From Alicyclobacillus fastidiosus (lineage in GTDB: Bacteria; Bacillota; Bacilli; Alicyclobacillales; Alicyclobacillaceae), in assembly GCF_026651875.1 (NCBI RefSeq), contig NZ_CP104067.1, positions 2,666,001 to 2,730,000 of the forward strand: 64,000 bases of DNA. Direction: 5' to 3'. The notes beneath the pieces are model-generated. The model had not been told where the DNA came from. It did no database searches and saw only the letters and a list, made by a program, of their open reading frames with translations. Below are positions 7,285 to 48,708 of the stretch, in pieces; the first letter of the stretch is position 1, and each line of letters opens with the position of its first letter. The position numbers and the translations under genes are program-made.

Positions 7285-7377
7285 GTGTGTATGCACTACA
7301 ACCGCATGCTTCCTGGGTTTTCAAAATGGGCTTTCCCATACCTTAGGCAGCGAGTCTGAGTGAAGGAGATTATATTT
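7285..7377 (+). ncRNA. Ribosomal protein L21 leader
   Basis: The leader between the promoter and rplU carries the run ACAACCGCATGCTTCCTGGG, an internal GGG...CCC hairpin (TGGGCTTTCCCA) and then GCGAGTCTGAGTGAAGGAG. This resembles the L21 leader of Bacillales, an autoregulatory mRNA element proposed to bind L21. The match is from memory of the class; a covariance-model search would settle it. Confidence 0.65.
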
Positions 7378-37663: not shown

Positions 37664-39063
37664 ACGCTGTGAGTCCGGCCGCTGCCAATGCGAATGTGTT
37701 CAGCGTGACGCAGTTAAATCGGGTGATCAAGGACCGCATAGAGACAGACCCAAGGCTGCTGCAGTGTCACGTGTCGGGAGAGATTTCTAACTTTAAACAT
37801 CACACGAGCGGGCACATGTACTTCACTCTTAAAGATGAACAAAGTCGCGTACGCGCCGTCATGTTCGCTGGCCGAAACCGCCGCCTCCGGTTCCGGCCAG
37901 AGGACGGGATGCGCGTCATTTGCACCGGGAGTGTCAGCGTGTTTGATCGCGACGGCCAATACCAACTGTACGTCGACGACATGCAGCCTGATGGCATCGG
38001 TGCACTCTATGTGCAATTTGAACAATTGCGCAACCGCCTGCAGGCCGAGGGTTTGTTCTCGCAAGTGAGAAAGCGCCCTCTGCCCGCGTATCCGACGCGC
38101 ATCGGCGTCGTCACATCTCCGACGGGAGCGGTCATCCGCGACATTTGTACGACGCTTGAACGGCGGTTCCCCTTGGCTAAGGTCATTTTGGCGCCTGCTG
38201 CAGTACAGGGAGCCGGTGCGGCCAAGACCCTCGTCGCAGGGTTGCGCAAACTGTGGAGCCTCAAGGACCCAGTAGACGTGATCATCATTGGACGCGGTGG
38301 CGGTTCTCTAGAGGAATTGTGGCCGTTTAATGAAGAGGTGGTCGCGCGTGCCGTCGCGAATTCGCCTGTACCCATAGTGTCCGCCGTCGGCCACGAGACA
38401 GACGTCACCATCTGCGATTTCGTCGCCGACGTGCGGGCGGCGACGCCTACCGCGGCGGCGGAGTTGGTGGCGCCTCACCGCCAGGACATGAGCTATCAAC
38501 TGACGCAGGCCCTGGCGAGATCGGTGGGGGCCATCACCAATCAGGTTAGGACCTCGCGACAGGTGCTGCGGGGACTTGCCGAGCGGCCGGTACTTCGCGA
38601 ACCGAAGCGGATGATCGATAAAGAGCGGCAAACGGTTGACTATGTCGAAGGAAGATTGCGAGATGCGCTCGTCCGCCCAGTGCGCGTCGCGCGGCGGCAG
38701 TACGTGGACGTGGAGAGAAGATTGTTGCGCATTGACCTGAAACGGCGCATCGATACGCTCAAGTACCAGACTCAGTCGTTAGAGGATAGGTCGGGCCAAA
38801 GTGTCAAACGCACTGTCGATCGCTACAACGCGATGCTCGAACGCCAAATTGGCGTTCTCGAGGCGATCAATCCTCTGAGCGTTTTGCGTAGAGGATATAG
38901 TGTTGTTTATGATGAATCTAAGGACGAAATTATTTCGAGCACGGCACAACTTCCTGCCGGCCGCCGAATTCGCATTCGGGTGGCGGATGGAACTGTGTGC
39001 GCAAACGTCGTCGACGATGGAGGAGTTTATACGCGTGGAGAGCAAACCAGACTTGACATTTGA
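37660..39063 (+). CDS. xseA: Exodeoxyribonuclease VII large subunit
   Basis: Single-strand-specific exonuclease subunit. The 467-residue protein has an OB-fold N-terminal domain (VSGEISNFKHHTSGHMYFTLKD), a central catalytic region (PTRIGVVTSPTGAVIRDI and GRGGGSLEELWPFNEE), a long coiled coil and a C-terminal segment. GTG start behind AAAGGAGGATG, overlapping folD. The small subunit gene begins inside its 3' end. Confidence 0.96.
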   Translation: MNAVSPAAANANVFSVTQLNRVIKDRIETDPRLLQCHVSGEISNFKHHTSGHMYFTLKDEQSRVRAVMFAGRNRRLRFRPEDGMRVICTGSVSVFDRDGQYQLYVDDMQPDGIGALYVQFEQLRNRLQAEGLFSQVRKRPLPAYPTRIGVVTSPTGAVIRDICTTLERRFPLAKVILAPAAVQGAGAAKTLVAGLRKLWSLKDPVDVIIIGRGGGSLEELWPFNEEVVARAVANSPVPIVSAVGHETDVTICDFVADVRAATPTAAAELVAPHRQDMSYQLTQALARSVGAITNQVRTSRQVLRGLAERPVLREPKRMIDKERQTVDYVEGRLRDALVRPVRVARRQYVDVERRLLRIDLKRRIDTLKYQTQSLEDRSGQSVKRTVDRYNAMLERQIGVLEAINPLSVLRRGYSVVYDESKDEIISSTAQLPAGRRIRIRVADGTVCANVVDDGGVYTRGEQTRLDI

Positions 39064-39274
39064 GGAAGCTATGAAGAAATTGGAGGACATTGTTCGACAG
39101 TTGGAGTCAGGTTCCCTGCCTCTGGCTGAAAGCCTGGACAAATATCAGGAATCGATGCACCTCGTGAAATTTTGTCGCGAGCAATTGGACAAGGCTGAGT
39201 TTAAGTTAGAACAACTCTCCATGGATGAAGTCGAGGCAGAATCGGAAGCGGAAGATGGATCGCCGACAGAATGA
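39035..39274 (+). CDS. xseB: Exodeoxyribonuclease VII small subunit
   Basis: 79-residue helical protein with the family core LTFEEAMKKLEDIVRQLE and SLDKYQESMHLVKFC. GTG 39035 is chosen because GGAGGAG lies about ten bases upstream; ATG 39017 has no ribosome site. It overlaps xseA by 29 bases. The acidic C-terminal tail is a common feature. Confidence 0.94.
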   Translation: MESKPDLTFEEAMKKLEDIVRQLESGSLPLAESLDKYQESMHLVKFCREQLDKAEFKLEQLSMDEVEAESEAEDGSPTE

Positions 39275-39289
39275 GGACGGTGAACGCAA

Positions 39290-40162
39290 ATGTCCTATCT
39301 CGAAAGCTGTAAATCTGAACTCAATCAGTACCTGGAAACCGCCCTCGTCACGAGTGGGCTCGCGAAACGGCTGTACGACGCGATGAACTACAGTTTGTTG
39401 AATGACGGCAAGCGGCTGCGCCCGGCGCTGTGCATGGCGACGGCGGAGACGTTTGGAGTCGAGCGGCAGGCTGTGCTGCCTGCCGCAGCCGCGTTGGAGA
39501 TGATCCACAGCTATTCGCTGATCCACGACGACTTACCTTGTATGGACGACGACGACTTGCGCCGCGGACAACCGACGAACCACAAGGTGTTTGGCGAGGC
39601 GATGGCGCTGCTCGCCGGGGACGGATTATTGACCGAGGCGTTTGTTCAACTGTCAAAGCCGCTGTCCGGAGTCTCGCCGGATCGACAGGTGTCGATGTTG
39701 CACACGCTCGCCTTGCGCGCGGGCGCGTCCGGCATGGTCGGAGGCCAAGCGGTAGACGTCGAACTGACTGGACAAGAGGGGACGCTCGCCGACGTGGAGT
39801 ACATCCACCTCCACAAGACCGCTCGGTTAATTCAGGCTTCCATCGAAATCGGTGCCCTGTTCCCGGAACTGCCGACTGAGTGCGTCAAGGCCCTGTCGGT
39901 GTACGGCGAATCGCTCGGACTCGCCTTTCAGATGATCGACGACGTGTTGGACGTCGTGGGCTCGTCGGAGGAACTCGGCAAGACGCCGGGCAAGGATGTG
40001 CAGGCGAATAAACTGACGTACCCCCGATTTCTCGGCGTCGAGGAGACGAGGGAGCTGGCGGCGCAGGTCATCGGGCGCGGCGAGCAGGCGCTTCTTAAGG
40101 TCGGCATTGCATCGAGTCCATTGCGAGAACTTCAATCGGTGGTTCTGGAACGCACCCACTAG
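39290..40162 (+). CDS. ispA: Polyprenyl (farnesyl) diphosphate synthase
   Basis: Condenses isopentenyl and allylic diphosphates. The 290-residue protein shows the first Asp-rich motif (DDLPCMDDDDLRRGQPT), the second (FQMIDDVLDV) and KLTYPRFLG. It is the last gene before the OLE RNA and the dxs gene of the same isoprenoid pathway lies after it. No clear terminator follows, so read-through into the OLE region is possible. Confidence 0.95.
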   Translation: MSYLESCKSELNQYLETALVTSGLAKRLYDAMNYSLLNDGKRLRPALCMATAETFGVERQAVLPAAAALEMIHSYSLIHDDLPCMDDDDLRRGQPTNHKVFGEAMALLAGDGLLTEAFVQLSKPLSGVSPDRQVSMLHTLALRAGASGMVGGQAVDVELTGQEGTLADVEYIHLHKTARLIQASIEIGALFPELPTECVKALSVYGESLGLAFQMIDDVLDVVGSSEELGKTPGKDVQANKLTYPRFLGVEETRELAAQVIGRGEQALLKVGIASSPLRELQSVVLERTH

Positions 40163-40230
40163 ATCTTCCTGTGCGTCCGGGGCGGATGCAATGGCAGGAT
40201 CGTTTGGCAACAATGAATTCTGTGGTTTTG

Positions 40231-40248
40231 CCGCGAATATGATATACT
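40231..40248 (+). promoter_or_regulatory. Extended -10 promoter for OLE RNA
   Basis: TGATATACT is an extended -10 element. It lies five to seven bases before the presumed 5' end of the RNA. No strong -35 is seen. Confidence 0.5.
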
Positions 40249-40253
40249 AAGTA

Positions 40254-40860
40254 TCAGTTGAGATGCCTTATGAATGGGTGGCGCAGTATTCTAGTCAGCC
40301 GTCCGTGCTTGAAGGCGGGGCTAAAAATCCGCCAAAGGGCACATCGATGAAGTTCCTGGTGTTGGCTTGGGGCGCCCAGCCCTGGGCTTATGCTGGGAGT
40401 TAAGAAAGTTGGGTAGCCCGCAATGGCATGTGGAACCTAACCCAGCTTTCGCGGAGGCCCAAGTGCGTAGCTCGCAGTCCACTAGTGGAAGGGTTATGGC
40501 TTGGGGTATGAACCTGCATGCGGAGGCAATCTGTGTGCAGTGTAGCCTGCCTTGAGTGGTACTGAAGGATCCTAGGTATTCAGGCGAAGTGCCGCGGCCA
40601 CGGTCACTTCGCTGGTGCTGGGTGAAATCCGTACTGCAAAAGAGGCTAGGGTGCGGTAACGGCTGCCGCGGAAAACGCCTAGACTGTTCGCTACAATGTG
40701 AGACACCTTGAGGATTATAGTGTGGACTAAGTGGTAATCTAGTCTGACAGTCGGTGACGCTGTCAAGTTGCGCTGAAAGGGAAACCGCCAGAACGGCGAC
40801 GTTTTGGCGCGCGACTGGGAAAACCTACTGGACCTAAGCCACAGCGTTTACTCAAGGAGT
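40254..40860 (+). ncRNA. OLE RNA (ornate, large, extremophilic RNA)
   Basis: A stretch of about 610 bases without a credible gene lies between ispA and a membrane-protein gene that is followed by dxs. This is the genomic position described for OLE RNA in extremophilic Firmicutes, and the length is right. Stable structures are visible: GCGAAGTG (40584) pairing with CACTTCGC (40605) plus an inner CCG/CGG, CTGACAG/CTGTCA near 40744-40766, and a 10-bp stem at 40786-40809 capped by the GNRA loop GCGA. The adjacent OapA-like gene supports the call. OLE forms a membrane RNP and is linked to alcohol, cold and magnesium stress. The ends are approximate; I cannot run the covariance model. Confidence 0.85.
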
Positions 40861-40893
40861 TGCCACCCTTTCTCAATCACTACATATGGAGAA

Positions 40894-41469
40894 ATGATGA
40901 AGAAATCGTCCAAATCGAAGTCAAACTATAAATTTATCGTGTTTGTTGCCGCACTGACGTTGCCTATCAGTGCGGTTTTCGATACATCTACTATCTTCCT
41001 CAATACGACGACATGGTATATTGGCGCGATTGTCGTGGTCTGTATCGTCTTTATCGGTGCGCTGTTTGATATGCTTGGCATGGCAGCGGCGGCCGCTCGA
41101 GAGACGCCATTCCACGCGATGGCGTCTAAACGCGTTTTTGGTGCGCGTCGCGCCATCGCGATCGTCCGAAATGCCGAAAAAGTGTCGAGTGTGTGTAGCG
41201 ACGTCATTGGCGATATCGCAGGTGTCCTCAGCGGTGCTGGCGCGCTCGCGGTGAGCGTACAATTGCTTGCGACGATACACGTAGGTGGCTGGAGAGATGA
41301 GGCGGTGAAAATCGCCATCACCGCCGTCATTACATCCTTGACCGTAGGGGGAAAAGCGATTGGCAAGACGGTGGCAATTCATTCTCCTACCCCCATCATT
41401 CTGTTTGCAGCTCGTTTATGGGAAACTGTGTCCTTCGTGGACCGCGGTGCACAACGGCGAAAAAAGTGA
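40894..41469 (+). CDS. oapA: OLE-associated membrane protein OapA
   Basis: 191-residue protein with a basic N-terminus (MKKSSKSKSNYKF), about four hydrophobic segments (residues about 17-37, 45-66, 112-130 and 140-160) and several Arg/Lys-rich loops (KRVFGARRAIAIVRNAEK). A DxxxD motif (SDVIGDIAG) near residue 105 matches the motif reported for OapA, which binds OLE RNA at the membrane. ATG 40894 or 40897 follows ATGGAG. It starts 34 bases after the RNA region and is 12 bases ahead of dxs. Confidence 0.85.
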   Translation: MMKKSSKSKSNYKFIVFVAALTLPISAVFDTSTIFLNTTTWYIGAIVVVCIVFIGALFDMLGMAAAAARETPFHAMASKRVFGARRAIAIVRNAEKVSSVCSDVIGDIAGVLSGAGALAVSVQLLATIHVGGWRDEAVKIAITAVITSLTVGGKAIGKTVAIHSPTPIILFAARLWETVSFVDRGAQRRKK

Positions 41470-41481
41470 GGCTTACGTTAG

Positions 41482-43365
41482 ATGAACATCTTGGACCAGA
41501 TCGATGAACCAGAAAAATTAAAGCGATTGACGACGGCGGAGCTCGTACAGCTCGCTAAGGAGATCCGGGCATTTCTCGTCGAATCGGTCTCCAAAACAGG
41601 GGGACACTTCGGTGCTAACTTGGGAGTGGTTGAACTCACCCTGGCGTTACACCGGGTATTTCACAGCCCCGAGGACAAAATTGTCTGGGACGTCGGGCAT
41701 CAAGCCTATGTGCACAAGTTGTTGACTGGTCGTAAGGAAGGGTTTGCCTCGCTGCGCCAATTTGGCGGCATGGCGGGATTTCCGAGGCGGGATGAGAGCG
41801 TACACGATCAATTCGGCGTAGGACATGCGAGCACGTCGATTTCTGCCGCGCTTGGGATGGCGGTCGCACGCGATTTACAAAAGAAGGACAATCACGTCAT
41901 CGCCGTCATCGGAGATGGTGCGCTGACGGGTGGCATGGCGATGGAGGCCCTCAACCATGCGGGGCACTTGGGAACGAATCTGTTGGTGGTGCTCAACGAC
42001 AATGAAATGTCCATCTCGGAAAACGTCGGCGCGGTGTCAAAATACCTGACGAAATTGCGTTCGGACCCGACCTACGCACGAGCCAAGGCCGACTTGGAAC
42101 AGATTTTGCGACGCTTACCTGCAATCGGAAATCGCTTGACGAACACGCTGGAGCGGTTCAAGGATGGCATGCGCAACTTGGTTGTACCTGGTCAATTTTT
42201 TGAGGCGTTCGGCTTTCGCTACTTAGGGCCTGTCGATGGGCACGATTTGGCGGGGATGATTCACACGCTGGAGGACGCAAAACGACTCAAGGGTCCCGTG
42301 CTCCTGCACGTGATCACGCAGAAGGGCAAAGGGTACGCGTCGGCGGAGAACGCTATCGACAAATGGCACGCTTGGCCGACTCCGAAGGGAGATAAGCAAA
42401 CCAAGTCCTACAGTCAAATTTTCGCGGAAACGCTGCGCGATTTGGCCAAAGATGACCCGCGCATCGTGGCGGTCTCGGCGGCGATGCTGCCAGGTACCGG
42501 ATTGTCCGCGTTCCAGTCTGCGTTTCCCAACCGGTGCTTTGACGTGGGCATCGCTGAACAACACGCGGCCACCTTCTGTGCAGGGCTGGCGACGCAGGGA
42601 ATGCGCCCAGTGTTCGCGGTGTACTCGACATTTTTACAGCGCGCCTACGATCAACTGATTCACGATGTCGCGATTCAGAACTTGCCGGTGCTCTTCGCGG
42701 TCGATCGCGCCGGGCTCGTCGGCGCGGACGGCGAAACGCACCAGGGCGCGTTCGACATCTCGTACGCACGCACGCTTCCGAATCTGACCATTATGATGCC
42801 AAAGGATGCAGCGGAGTTGCGGCAGATGATCCATACGGCATTGACCTTGAATGGCCCTTGTATCGTCCGCTATCCACGGGCAGACACGCACCCGCTGGTC
42901 GAAACGTCGCCCATCGAACATGTTCCAATTGGCAAGGCCGAGATCGTGCGAGAGGGTTCCCAGGTGGCGATTTTCGCGCTCGGTCCGATGGTCGCTATGG
43001 CGGAGACTGCGGCGGACGCGTTACTGCAAGCTCACGGCATTTCTGCGAAGGTGGTCAACCTTCGATTCGTGAAGCCCTTGGATGAGGCGCTGGTAATTGA
43101 GTGCGGGCGACACATGCCGATTGTCACCGTCGAGGAGGCGTCGACGCTGGGCGGCGCGGGTTCCGCCATACTCGAGGCGCTCGCTGCAGCGGACGTCTGT
43201 ACACCACTTCACCGCCTTGGCTTACCGGATGAGTTTATCCCGCATGGTGGGCGCAACGAGTTGTTGAAATCGATTGGGTTGACGGTCGATGGCATCGTGC
43301 AGGCGTGTCTCGACGTCGTTTCGGTTCAGACGGCTCGTCAAAGTCACATGTTGGTGGAGGACTAA
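41482..43365 (+). CDS. dxs: 1-deoxy-D-xylulose-5-phosphate synthase
   Basis: First enzyme of the MEP isoprenoid pathway, thiamine-diphosphate dependent. The 627-residue protein has GHFGANLGVVELTLALHRVF, HQAYVHKLLTGR, the ThDP motif (GDGALTGGMAMEALNHAG to NDN) and FDVGIAEQHAATF in the transketolase domain. It abuts tlyA with no gap. ispA of the same pathway lies on the other side of the OLE locus. Confidence 0.97.
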   Translation: MNILDQIDEPEKLKRLTTAELVQLAKEIRAFLVESVSKTGGHFGANLGVVELTLALHRVFHSPEDKIVWDVGHQAYVHKLLTGRKEGFASLRQFGGMAGFPRRDESVHDQFGVGHASTSISAALGMAVARDLQKKDNHVIAVIGDGALTGGMAMEALNHAGHLGTNLLVVLNDNEMSISENVGAVSKYLTKLRSDPTYARAKADLEQILRRLPAIGNRLTNTLERFKDGMRNLVVPGQFFEAFGFRYLGPVDGHDLAGMIHTLEDAKRLKGPVLLHVITQKGKGYASAENAIDKWHAWPTPKGDKQTKSYSQIFAETLRDLAKDDPRIVAVSAAMLPGTGLSAFQSAFPNRCFDVGIAEQHAATFCAGLATQGMRPVFAVYSTFLQRAYDQLIHDVAIQNLPVLFAVDRAGLVGADGETHQGAFDISYARTLPNLTIMMPKDAAELRQMIHTALTLNGPCIVRYPRADTHPLVETSPIEHVPIGKAEIVREGSQVAIFALGPMVAMAETAADALLQAHGISAKVVNLRFVKPLDEALVIECGRHMPIVTVEEASTLGGAGSAILEALAAADVCTPLHRLGLPDEFIPHGGRNELLKSIGLTVDGIVQACLDVVSVQTARQSHMLVED

Positions 43366-44211
43366 ATGGCTGGAACGCGTTTGGATGTGTTGTTGCACGC
43401 TCGCGGTCTGTACCCAAGTCGGGAAGCGGCGAGGCGGGCGGTGATGGCGGGCTTAGTCAAGGTCGGCGGCGAGCGGGCGGACAAACCAGGGATGAAAGTG
43501 CACGACGATGCGGTCGTCGACATTTTGGAACCGGAGCACCACTTCGTTTCCCGTGGCGGATTGAAATTGCAACAGGCCTTGGACCGGTTTGACGTGGATG
43601 TCACCGGCCGGGTGGCGATTGATGTCGGGGCTTCGACTGGCGGATTCACAGACTGTCTGTTACAGCACAGTGCCTCCCGTGTGTATGCCGTGGATGTCGG
43701 GTATGGGCAACTCGCGTGGACGCTCCGCAACGACCCGAGAGTGGTGGTCATGGAACGTACCAATTTCCGCCACGCCGACGAAGGGTTGTTTCAACCACAG
43801 CCCAGTCTCGCAGTTATGGACGTCTCTTTCATCTCGACCAAACTGCTGTTCCCGAAGCTGGCGGCCGTCTCCACAGATGGCGCGGACGTCATAAGTCTCG
43901 TCAAGCCTCAGTTCGAAGCCGGTCGCGGCTTTGTCGGAAAAGGGGGCATTGTGCGAGACGCCAGGGTTCATCTACGGGTACTTCTGGACATGCTGGATCA
44001 TGTCACGTCCGTAGGTTGGTCTTGTCATGGACTCACGTTTTCTCCGATTTCCGGTGGAGACGGCAATATTGAATTCCTGGCCTGGTGGAAGATGGTAGAG
44101 GGCGACGAAAGCAGCAACTGGACCAGCGTCGCCAAAGCGGTGGTGGTTGAAGCGTGGAATGAGCTTCAGGGAGAGAACGTCGAATCGGTTCTGGAGAGTC
44201 CACTGGCCTAA
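43366..44211 (+). CDS. tlyA: TlyA family rRNA (cytidine-2'-O)-methyltransferase
   Basis: 281-residue protein: S4 RNA-binding domain (RLDVLLHARGLYPSREAARR) followed by an FtsJ-like methyltransferase domain with SAM motif AIDVGASTGGFTDCLLQ, the DVSF motif and LVKPQFEAGR. Homologues methylate 16S/23S rRNA; the haemolysin label is historical. GGTGGAGG at the end of dxs serves as ribosome site. Confidence 0.95.
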   Translation: MAGTRLDVLLHARGLYPSREAARRAVMAGLVKVGGERADKPGMKVHDDAVVDILEPEHHFVSRGGLKLQQALDRFDVDVTGRVAIDVGASTGGFTDCLLQHSASRVYAVDVGYGQLAWTLRNDPRVVVMERTNFRHADEGLFQPQPSLAVMDVSFISTKLLFPKLAAVSTDGADVISLVKPQFEAGRGFVGKGGIVRDARVHLRVLLDMLDHVTSVGWSCHGLTFSPISGGDGNIEFLAWWKMVEGDESSNWTSVAKAVVVEAWNELQGENVESVLESPLA

Positions 44212-44220
44212 CGGACAATC

Positions 44221-44748
44221 TTGTGGCAGGATAGGACGACCGTATCCGTGATCACGTTTTTTGGACTGTTGGGCGCTTTTTGGTGTCTTTGGTATGTGAC
44301 CAAATCCCTCGTGTTGGCGCGTCCCTCCAAACAGAAGGAGTCGCCGCCTGACGGACTTTTGCAAAGTGCCCTGCGATGGCTTTCGGACAATGACTACGAC
44401 GTGCTCAATGCACAGAAGACGGCGGGTTACACCGCATACATCGGCGATTCTCTTGTCGGTTATAAAGAAGAAGCGGATTTTATTGCACGAAAGAACGGCC
44501 ATGAGTATGCTGTGATTGTTGGGCTCGAAGACCTGTCCCAAGAGGAGATTTGTCAGCGGTACTTCCCGTTGTTTGCGATTCTAGACGTGCAAGGAATCAT
44601 TTTTCTCAACATGCGGGATGAAACTGTACGGCACGTTGAGTTTGTTCTTCATCGACCACGCCGCCACCACTTTCGTCATCTGGTCTATCGAAGTCTTTGG
44701 TTTTCAGGGGGCATATTGTTCGCTTTTGCCTTGTTGCATCGCGCGTGA
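44221..44748 (+). CDS. Two-helix membrane protein with a degenerate nuclease-like core
   Basis: 175-residue protein, not recognised. It has an N-terminal membrane helix (about residues 7-30), a soluble middle domain and a C-terminal helix (about 157-175). The middle (DNDYDVLNAQKTAGYTAYI, then EADFIARKNGHEYAVIV) resembles the core of PD-(D/E)XK nuclease-like proteins, but the final ExK position reads GLED, so activity is unlikely if the resemblance is real. The TTG start is nine bases after the tlyA stop. It probably belongs to the dxs-tlyA-nadK-recN run. Confidence 0.6.
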   Translation: MWQDRTTVSVITFFGLLGAFWCLWYVTKSLVLARPSKQKESPPDGLLQSALRWLSDNDYDVLNAQKTAGYTAYIGDSLVGYKEEADFIARKNGHEYAVIVGLEDLSQEEICQRYFPLFAILDVQGIIFLNMRDETVRHVEFVLHRPRRHHFRHLVYRSLWFSGGILFAFALLHRA

Positions 44749-47430: not shown

Positions 47431-48708
47431 ATGGCTGGTCGCCTGCGCACGATTCGGTTTGTTGGACTTCTTGCAATTACTGTAGCATGCTTCACACCCG
47501 CTGTTCAAAAGATGGCTTCCACACCGACACAGGTCAGTATGGTCACGGGCGACACTGTCGCTCTCCCAATGACCGGTACGCAACCATCGACTTCGTCGTC
47601 ATCCATTGCATCCACTTACAAGGCATCATCCTCTTCATGCACCGTTACTTCCACAGGTCCTGGGGACACGGACATCTCGGGCAAGCGTTTCGGAATTATT
47701 CCTTGGAAGACACACATTCACGTGGAACCTGCTGCGCGCGTTATGGTTGGCGGGCAGGCGGTCGGTATCCGCATCCAAAGCACGGGACCCGTGGTAGTGG
47801 GTTTTCGCCGGTTGACGGACGGGTCATCTCCGTGTGCGAATGCGCATATGCAGTTGGGGGATCGGATCATTTCCGTCAATGATCGGCGAATCGAAACCGC
47901 CAGCGACCTACAAGCGGCCCTTCGAAGCAGGGGGCAGGCTGTGCACATGACCGTCGTACGGGGAAACACGACAAAACAGTTTACGCTGTCGTTCAAAGAC
48001 GCCTCTGTTCATCAGCTTGGCCTGTACGTCCGAGACAGAACGGTAGGAGTGGGCACGCTGACCTTTTACGATCCCGCCCATCACACGTTCGGTGCCCTAG
48101 GCCATATCATTACGGATGCGGATACGGGTCAACCTGTGGTTGGGGCAGGGGGATTGTATCAAGCGTCGATCACCGGACTCCAACCGGGTGCGGCCGGGGC
48201 TCCAGGCGAGAAACGTGGGACCTTCTCATCTGCGAGTACACCGCTCGGACACATTGACGTGAATACACCATACGGCGTGTTTGGGTCAATGTCGCGGCCG
48301 CCAGTGCGCACACCCGTTCCTGGCATCTTGGACGTGGCCCTTCCCGAGCAGGTACACGAGGGCCCGGCTAAAATGTATACGGTGGTACACGGTACGAGAG
48401 TGGAGGGGTTTGATGTGCGCATCGACAACGTAGCACGTCAGTCCAATCCAGCGACGAAAAGTATGATTGTCCGCGTCACCGACCCTCGACTGTTATCTGA
48501 AACAGGTGGTATCATTCAGGGGATGAGCGGAAGTCCTCTGGTACAGGACCACCGCTTAATTGGGGCTGTGACACACGTGTTCGTGTCCGATCCTACGCGT
48601 GGATATGCAGTGTATGCCATGTGGATGTTTCGACAGACCCGGTTATCGGGCAAACAACAGACGCCGTCCACAGTTTCTTTCCTTCATCCCAGACGATACG
48701 CGGTATAA
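47431..48708 (+). CDS. spoIVB: SpoIVB serine protease (S55), sigma-K checkpoint signal
   Basis: SpoIVB is made in the forespore and cuts SpoIVFA, releasing SpoIVFB. The 425-residue protein has an N-terminal membrane or signal segment, a Ser/Thr-rich linker, a PDZ domain (about residues 115-185; QLGDRIISVNDRRI) and the S55 domain. The catalytic His lies in FGALGHIITDAD and the Ser in QGMSGSPLVQ. Its partners spoIVFA and spoIVFB are at 5453-7242. The ATG lies after AAGGGGGAAGG. Confidence 0.95.
   Translation: MAGRLRTIRFVGLLAITVACFTPAVQKMASTPTQVSMVTGDTVALPMTGTQPSTSSSSIASTYKASSSSCTVTSTGPGDTDISGKRFGIIPWKTHIHVEPAARVMVGGQAVGIRIQSTGPVVVGFRRLTDGSSPCANAHMQLGDRIISVNDRRIETASDLQAALRSRGQAVHMTVVRGNTTKQFTLSFKDASVHQLGLYVRDRTVGVGTLTFYDPAHHTFGALGHIITDADTGQPVVGAGGLYQASITGLQPGAAGAPGEKRGTFSSASTPLGHIDVNTPYGVFGSMSRPPVRTPVPGILDVALPEQVHEGPAKMYTVVHGTRVEGFDVRIDNVARQSNPATKSMIVRVTDPRLLSETGGIIQGMSGSPLVQDHRLIGAVTHVFVSDPTRGYAVYAMWMFRQTRLSGKQQTPSTVSFLHPRRYAV

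Follow-up and report, generated by a model that had tools for sequence, protein, structure and literature searches.

In the window, by which we mean the whole 64,000-nt stretch of the Alicyclobacillus fastidiosus genome that was analysed, a large structured RNA and the gene of a membrane protein lie between two isoprenoid genes, in the following order:

39290..40162, + strand: ispA, farnesyl diphosphate synthase, the upstream neighbour (NF045485, 341.7 bits, cut-off 275)
40240..40248, + strand: extended -10 element TGATATACT (hexamer TATACT at 40243-40248), beginning 22 nt before the start of the OLE model
40262..40882, + strand: OLE RNA (Rfam RF01071) of the full-length type (519 bits, E-value 2.3e-150, positions 1-616 of the 616 in the model), with covariation
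40787..40808, + strand: apical hairpin of OLE with a GCGA loop (94.8% of cells paired; both sides change in 6 of the 9 pairs)
40894..41469, + strand: oapA, encoding the 191-aa OLE-associated membrane protein A with DxxxD at residues 103-107 and a weak CNNM match; 3' of OLE in 30/30 loci
41482..43365, + strand: dxs, 1-deoxy-D-xylulose-5-phosphate synthase, the downstream neighbour (TIGR00204, 827.6 bits, cut-off 465.95)

The sequence-only reading had assigned the gap between the isoprenoid genes to the OLE class; the covariance search of the gap bears this out, with a score far above the gathering score of RF01071 (50 bits), and the profile matches confirm the identity of both flanking genes. 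OLE was the single Rfam match in the region 38000-44000, and a scan of the whole window at gathering scores added only an L21 ribosomal leader RNA (7290-7367, 44.4 bits). The search of the A. fastidiosus genome found one copy of OLE, located on the 5.72 Mb main contig. In line with the claim of a non-coding gap, the only frame of at least 70 aa that enters the OLE span is that of oapA, extended mechanically in the 5' direction. A minor correction concerns the start of the RNA, which had been set at 40231, while the position of the promoter and the covariance model place it near 40255-40262. Judged by its sequence, the locus is a complete ole-oapA locus, and its RNA is an ordinary member of an already known family with a known partner. 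In GTDB genomes, a published survey counted 2,822 OLE RNAs in Bacillota and, as far as its consulted parts tell, very probably includes the family of the window; our literature search found no paper on OLE RNA in Alicyclobacillus or in Pullulanibacillus. Among conserved bacterial RNAs to which no biochemical function has been assigned, OLE is one of the largest.

The secondary structure was analysed in an alignment of 30 OLE sequences (the window and those 29 of the other 36 OLE matches that were given loci), in which column identity averages 84% and long invariant stretches are present. The Rfam structure placed on the window row comprises 158 pairs in 18 helices, and 147 of these pairs are standard in the window copy. 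Changes on both sides were observed in 78 of the 158 pairs, compared to a mean of 42.4 in shuffled alignments (none of 500 shuffles reached as high), and 93.3% of paired cells are indeed paired, versus 85.4% after shuffling and 39-43% when the structure is slid along the alignment. Thus, OLE in these 30 sequences has a conserved secondary structure supported by covariation. Six pairs of the model are unpaired in at least 25 rows (columns 204-244, 270-274, 271-273, 309-381, 330-365 and 505-514) and three further ones in 17 to 19 rows (205-243, 214-234 and 215-233); we take these nine to be either genuine internal loops or sites where the consensus is locally misplaced. The 5 pairs of helix 14 are invariant and therefore uninformative for or against the structure. 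The Rfam structure contains all three stems named in the sequence-only reading (40581-40594/40601-40615, 40745-40753/40758-40765 and 40787-40795/40800-40808), and the last one carries the GNRA loop ascribed to it, GCGA; the middle stem (40745-40765) is also capped by a GNRA loop, GTGA. The hairpin at 40787-40808 is probably the published OapB-binding hairpin, P13.

The RNA had also been credited with its own extended -10 promoter, and such an element is present at 40240-40248, where it reads TG-A-TATACT. The consensus scan of positions 40000-41600 returned no passing -35/-10 pair, so the extended -10 lacks a consensus -35 partner. The motif TGnTATAMT occurs upstream of OLE in 30/30 sequences, beginning 6 to 49 nt before the start of the model, versus 14 of 20197 overlapping control windows from the same loci, which argues that its presence is not due to chance. 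In the genus of the window (15/15 genomes) it starts 20-49 nt before the model, whereas the remaining 15 sequences have it 6-13 nt before the model; the genus thus seems to have a longer OLE 5' leader. The loci with the longer spacing are:

the window, L001, L014-L016, L019-L021, L023, L025, L027, L030, L031, L033, L034 and L036

A second set was built from loci of named genomes, namely the best 80 of 380 confirmed OapA relatives; it overlaps with the 30 sequences, as many named records represent the same genomes. Four of its loci were dropped from the promoter count, two that have no OLE (L077 and L079) and two cut at a contig end (L059 and L062). In the 76 scorable loci, the strict TGnTATAMT was found 57 times (control 0.11%) and the looser TGnTAnAnT 75 times (control 2.1%), the Paraliobacillus locus L126 being the one with neither. 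A promoter of its own is reported for OLE of Halalkalibacterium halodurans in the consulted part of PMC9723947. The published passages on OLE promoters that we consulted contain no statement of an extended -10, and we claim no novelty for it.

The oapA gene begins after a gap of 11 nt from the end of OLE. Its product agrees with the four-helix basic protein with a DxxxD motif that had been described from the frame: it has four hydrophobic segments (14-32, 43-61, 108-126 and 138-156), 22 K/R versus 10 D/E residues, and a single DxxxD, D103-D107. Both aspartates are invariant in the 30 OapA sequences, as well as in a further set of 30 rows that extends to Paenibacillus and Halobacillus. According to the consulted part of PMC11332333, this motif is distinctive of OapA and CNNM domains lack it. 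The identification of the partner as OapA is further supported by the loci found with its profile: in the named set, i.e. the best 80 of 380 relatives, OLE lies near OapA in 78/80, the exceptions being L077 and L079. The match to the CNNM family (PF01595, curated cut-off 28.4 bits) is weak: it scores 25.1 bits for OapA alone, and 28.2 bits in the six-frame search, counted as 28.4 with its neighbours. CNNM is the only domain detected in OapA; neither the CBS pair nor CorC_HlyC was found. Searches with the single protein and with the profile revealed no solved structure related to OapA by sequence, and the comparison of the OapA profile with the MpfA protein of A. fastidiosus was not significant (1.3% probability).

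All 30 OLE loci have ispA on the upstream side of the RNA and oapA on the downstream side, and dxs comes next within the fetched flank in 19/30. Further downstream in the window, a 175-aa protein (44221-44748) encoded between tlyA and nadK has no Pfam or NCBIfam match at an E-value of 0.1, and a frame of 425 aa (47431-48708) follows a recN-like frame. We take the latter to resemble the sporulation peptidase SpoIVB. Sporulation genes close to ole are mentioned in the consulted parts of the OLE literature.

Two other protein partners, expected elsewhere in the genome, are both encoded there:

L038:10233-10565: OapB (PDB 7k9b, 'OLE-associated protein B', E-value 7.4e-18)
L037:14155-14430: OapC (YbxF) (B. 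subtilis YbxF, 3v7e, E-value 3.3e-15)

OapB was spotted in a ribosomal protein region and then confirmed against the PDB; a Pfam KOW search for it had returned only two other KOW proteins. The OapC gene is flanked by frames that we read as rpoC and rpsL. It appeared at first to be broken by a TGA inside the match, but the frame is intact (91 aa) and the match merely overruns the stop. A second L7Ae protein of the genome (L002) is presumably YlxQ. In a survey of 22 genomes with a single-protein query, OapB was found in 8/8 genomes of the window's family, 0/8 of the sister family (the absence thus concerns 8 of its 18 genomes), 2/5 of the other families without OLE, and in the single genome G060. 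One of the matches (G016:C1:3484553-3484855) has a TGA inside and may, like that of OapC, just run past a stop.

The phyletic distribution of OLE was compared with that of MpfA, a CNNM protein with a CBS pair and a CorC_HlyC domain. OLE was matched in 37 of the 61 genomes searched: 36/37 in the window's family (Alicyclobacillaceae), 0/18 in the sister family of the same order, 0/5 in five other families, and 1/1 in one further family (G060). The apparent loss in the remaining member of the window's family, G034, was rejected, as OapA is present and OLE is cut by the end of the contig, so that a 51-bit fragment is left; we conclude that all 37 genomes of the family carry OLE. Full-length MpfA-type CNNM proteins (E-value below 1e-40) show the opposite pattern, being found in 5/37 genomes of the window's family (G000, G004, G007, G012 and G021), 16/18 of the sister family, 5/5 of the other families without OLE, and in G060 (1/1); the two genomes of the sister family without MpfA are 88% and 73% complete. 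MpfA is thus present in 6/38 genomes with OLE and in 21/23 without it (Fisher p-value 4.5e-9, uncorrected for kinship), a contrast that rests on few deep branches, so that the p-value overstates the number of independent events. A. fastidiosus has an MpfA of its own (L040:2773-4089, i.e. C1:1218772-1220088) with the CNNM, CBS pair and CorC_HlyC domains; as both systems coexist in this genome, in four other family members and in G060, the replacement is not strict. OapA was found in none of five genomes of the sister family (of its 18) and in none of five from the other families without OLE. At the eight dxs loci of the sister family that were examined, ispA adjoins in seven, and neither OLE nor OapA was found. 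This exchange of OLE, OapA and OapB for MpfA at the family level supports, without proving it, a role of OLE-OapA in metal homeostasis, and the two families offer natural single and double states, in which the equivalence of OLE-OapA and MpfA could be tested.

We consider it probable that OLE and OapA form a membrane ribonucleoprotein anchored by OapA, in which the RNA would serve as the regulatory and scaffolding part of a divalent-metal transporter or sensor that guards the cell against Mg2+, cold and alcohol stress. By analogy with H. halodurans, the RNA of about 600 nt would be abundantly transcribed, both from its own promoter and as part of a larger operon; a k-turn would bind OapC and a terminal hairpin OapB, while dimers of OapA would hold the RNA in the membrane. 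OapA itself would be a CNNM-like protein devoid of the CBS and CorC domains of MpfA, its transport or sensing activity being regulated and scaffolded by the RNA, and the OLE-OapA complex would confer the protection under stress. The consulted parts of PMC12265935 and PMC11332333 note the resemblance of OapA to a CNNM metal transporter and suggest that the RNA may replace the domains of MpfA that OapA lacks. The genomes analysed here directly show the components, the degree to which these are conserved and the pattern of exchange; transport, regulation by RNA and the roles in stress we infer by analogy.

Or perhaps OLE is primarily a ribozyme, for which synthesis of c-di-AMP has been suggested in print, and OapA a mere membrane anchor? 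The size of the RNA, its ornate fold and its long invariant stretches would fit such a function, and OLE is cited as ribozyme-like in its own field (PMC11332333, consulted in part), yet the OLE literature consulted reports no activity, and the exchange with MpfA points to metal transport rather than to a lost reaction product. We regard this explanation as unlikely. The possibility that OLE acts mainly in cis, as a leader controlling oapA and dxs on the same transcript, is considerably less likely still. It would account for the short distance of 11 nt between the end of the RNA and oapA and for the position between isoprenoid genes with an own promoter element, but 620 nt at such a depth of conservation is, from general knowledge, rare for leaders, the consulted part of PMC9723947 describes the detection of a presumably processed RNA of about 630 nt, OLE is reported to bind proteins such as OapC, and dxs comes next at just 19 of the 30 loci. 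Finally, a decayed or assembly-derived copy without function, which the estimated genome contamination of 9.38% could bring to mind, may be practically dismissed, as the match lies on the main contig and retains 147 of 158 standard pairs, the frames of OapA, OapB and OapC are intact, and L031, the nearest kin by OLE sequence (98.9% identical), shares the arrangement of the locus.

The membrane ribonucleoprotein, which we favour, has to accommodate OapA genes that lie apart from any OLE. Two such orphans are known from the named set:

L077:2501-3073: second OapA of Pullulanibacillus camelliae, no OLE nearby
L079:2504-3079: second OapA of Caenibacillus caldisaponilyticus, no OLE nearby

These two members of Sporolactobacillaceae are the only genomes with two OapA genes among the 42 surveyed (26 of the 37 genomes of the window's family and 16 named ones), and both have OLE elsewhere, beside an ordinary oapA and dxs; the OLE locus of Caenibacillus shows ispA too, and that of Pullulanibacillus begins close to the end of a contig. 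A tree of 32 OapA rows places the window row beside A. suci; in it, the ordinary copies of the two genomes group with Bacillaceae, while the orphans fall inside Alicyclobacillaceae, in a group of 10 rows with support 100/100. This suggests a transfer of OapA without its RNA, although the exact place of the orphans is less sure than the group, given their long stem (0.91), the midpoint root and a long-row warning for L080. We also considered whether the two copies of each genome could form a pair of oppositely oriented proteins; by eye, the N-terminus is positive in both copies and no sign of inverted topology was seen. The extra unlinked copies in two genomes suggest, as far as gene content can tell, that a linked RNA may not always be needed for OapA to act, and they provide a test of whether OapA needs the RNA at all.

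Mobile elements were searched as well. Phage records yielded no match to OLE DNA, and viral contigs no confirmed OapA relative. Among plasmid records, one holds both OLE and OapA: NZ_AP023421.1 of Pusillibacter faecalis, a 504 kb record typed as conjugative, with a full OLE (L141:5274-5938, 399.8 bits) and, beside it, OapA and the genes dxs-tlyA-nadK-argR-recN. These core genes suggest a second chromosome-like replicon.

We further put forward, as a speculative and rather doubtful extension of the membrane ribonucleoprotein model, that OLE corresponds, as an RNA, to the regulatory domains of MpfA. One family would then have kept a metal transporter, OapA, regulated by RNA, and its sister would have swapped the RNA, OapA and OapB for the all-protein MpfA, while OapA would move between lineages without the RNA, the transferred copy sharing the resident OLE or acting alone, as perhaps in Pullulanibacillus and Caenibacillus.

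How does the locus relate to the known systems? The OLE variants 1 and 2, which occur most often in TANB77 and RF39, have the same core according to the consulted part of the published description, with P7-P9 shorter or P7 and P8 missing, and the OapB site is often absent from variant 1; in contrast, the whole model is matched here, with 18 helices on the window row. The predicted OapA is reported to overlay the membrane domain of CorB (PMC11332333, consulted in part). It resembles MpfA, CorB and other CNNM proteins (PF01595) by its weak CNNM match, but differs from MpfA in having four hydrophobic segments and the DxxxD motif and in lacking CBS and CorC_HlyC, while the CNNM domain of the MpfA of A. 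fastidiosus lacks DxxxD. The closest likeness is to the OLE RNA of H. halodurans and other Bacillota, with which the locus shares the full model, oapA directly 3' of the RNA, isoprenoid neighbours, genome-encoded OapB and OapC, and an own promoter element. It differs from them in its host, Alicyclobacillus, in the greater distance of the extended -10 element from the start of the model (20-49 nt in the genus of the window, versus 6-13 nt in the remaining 15 of the 30 sequences), and in the presence of a full-length MpfA in the same genome.
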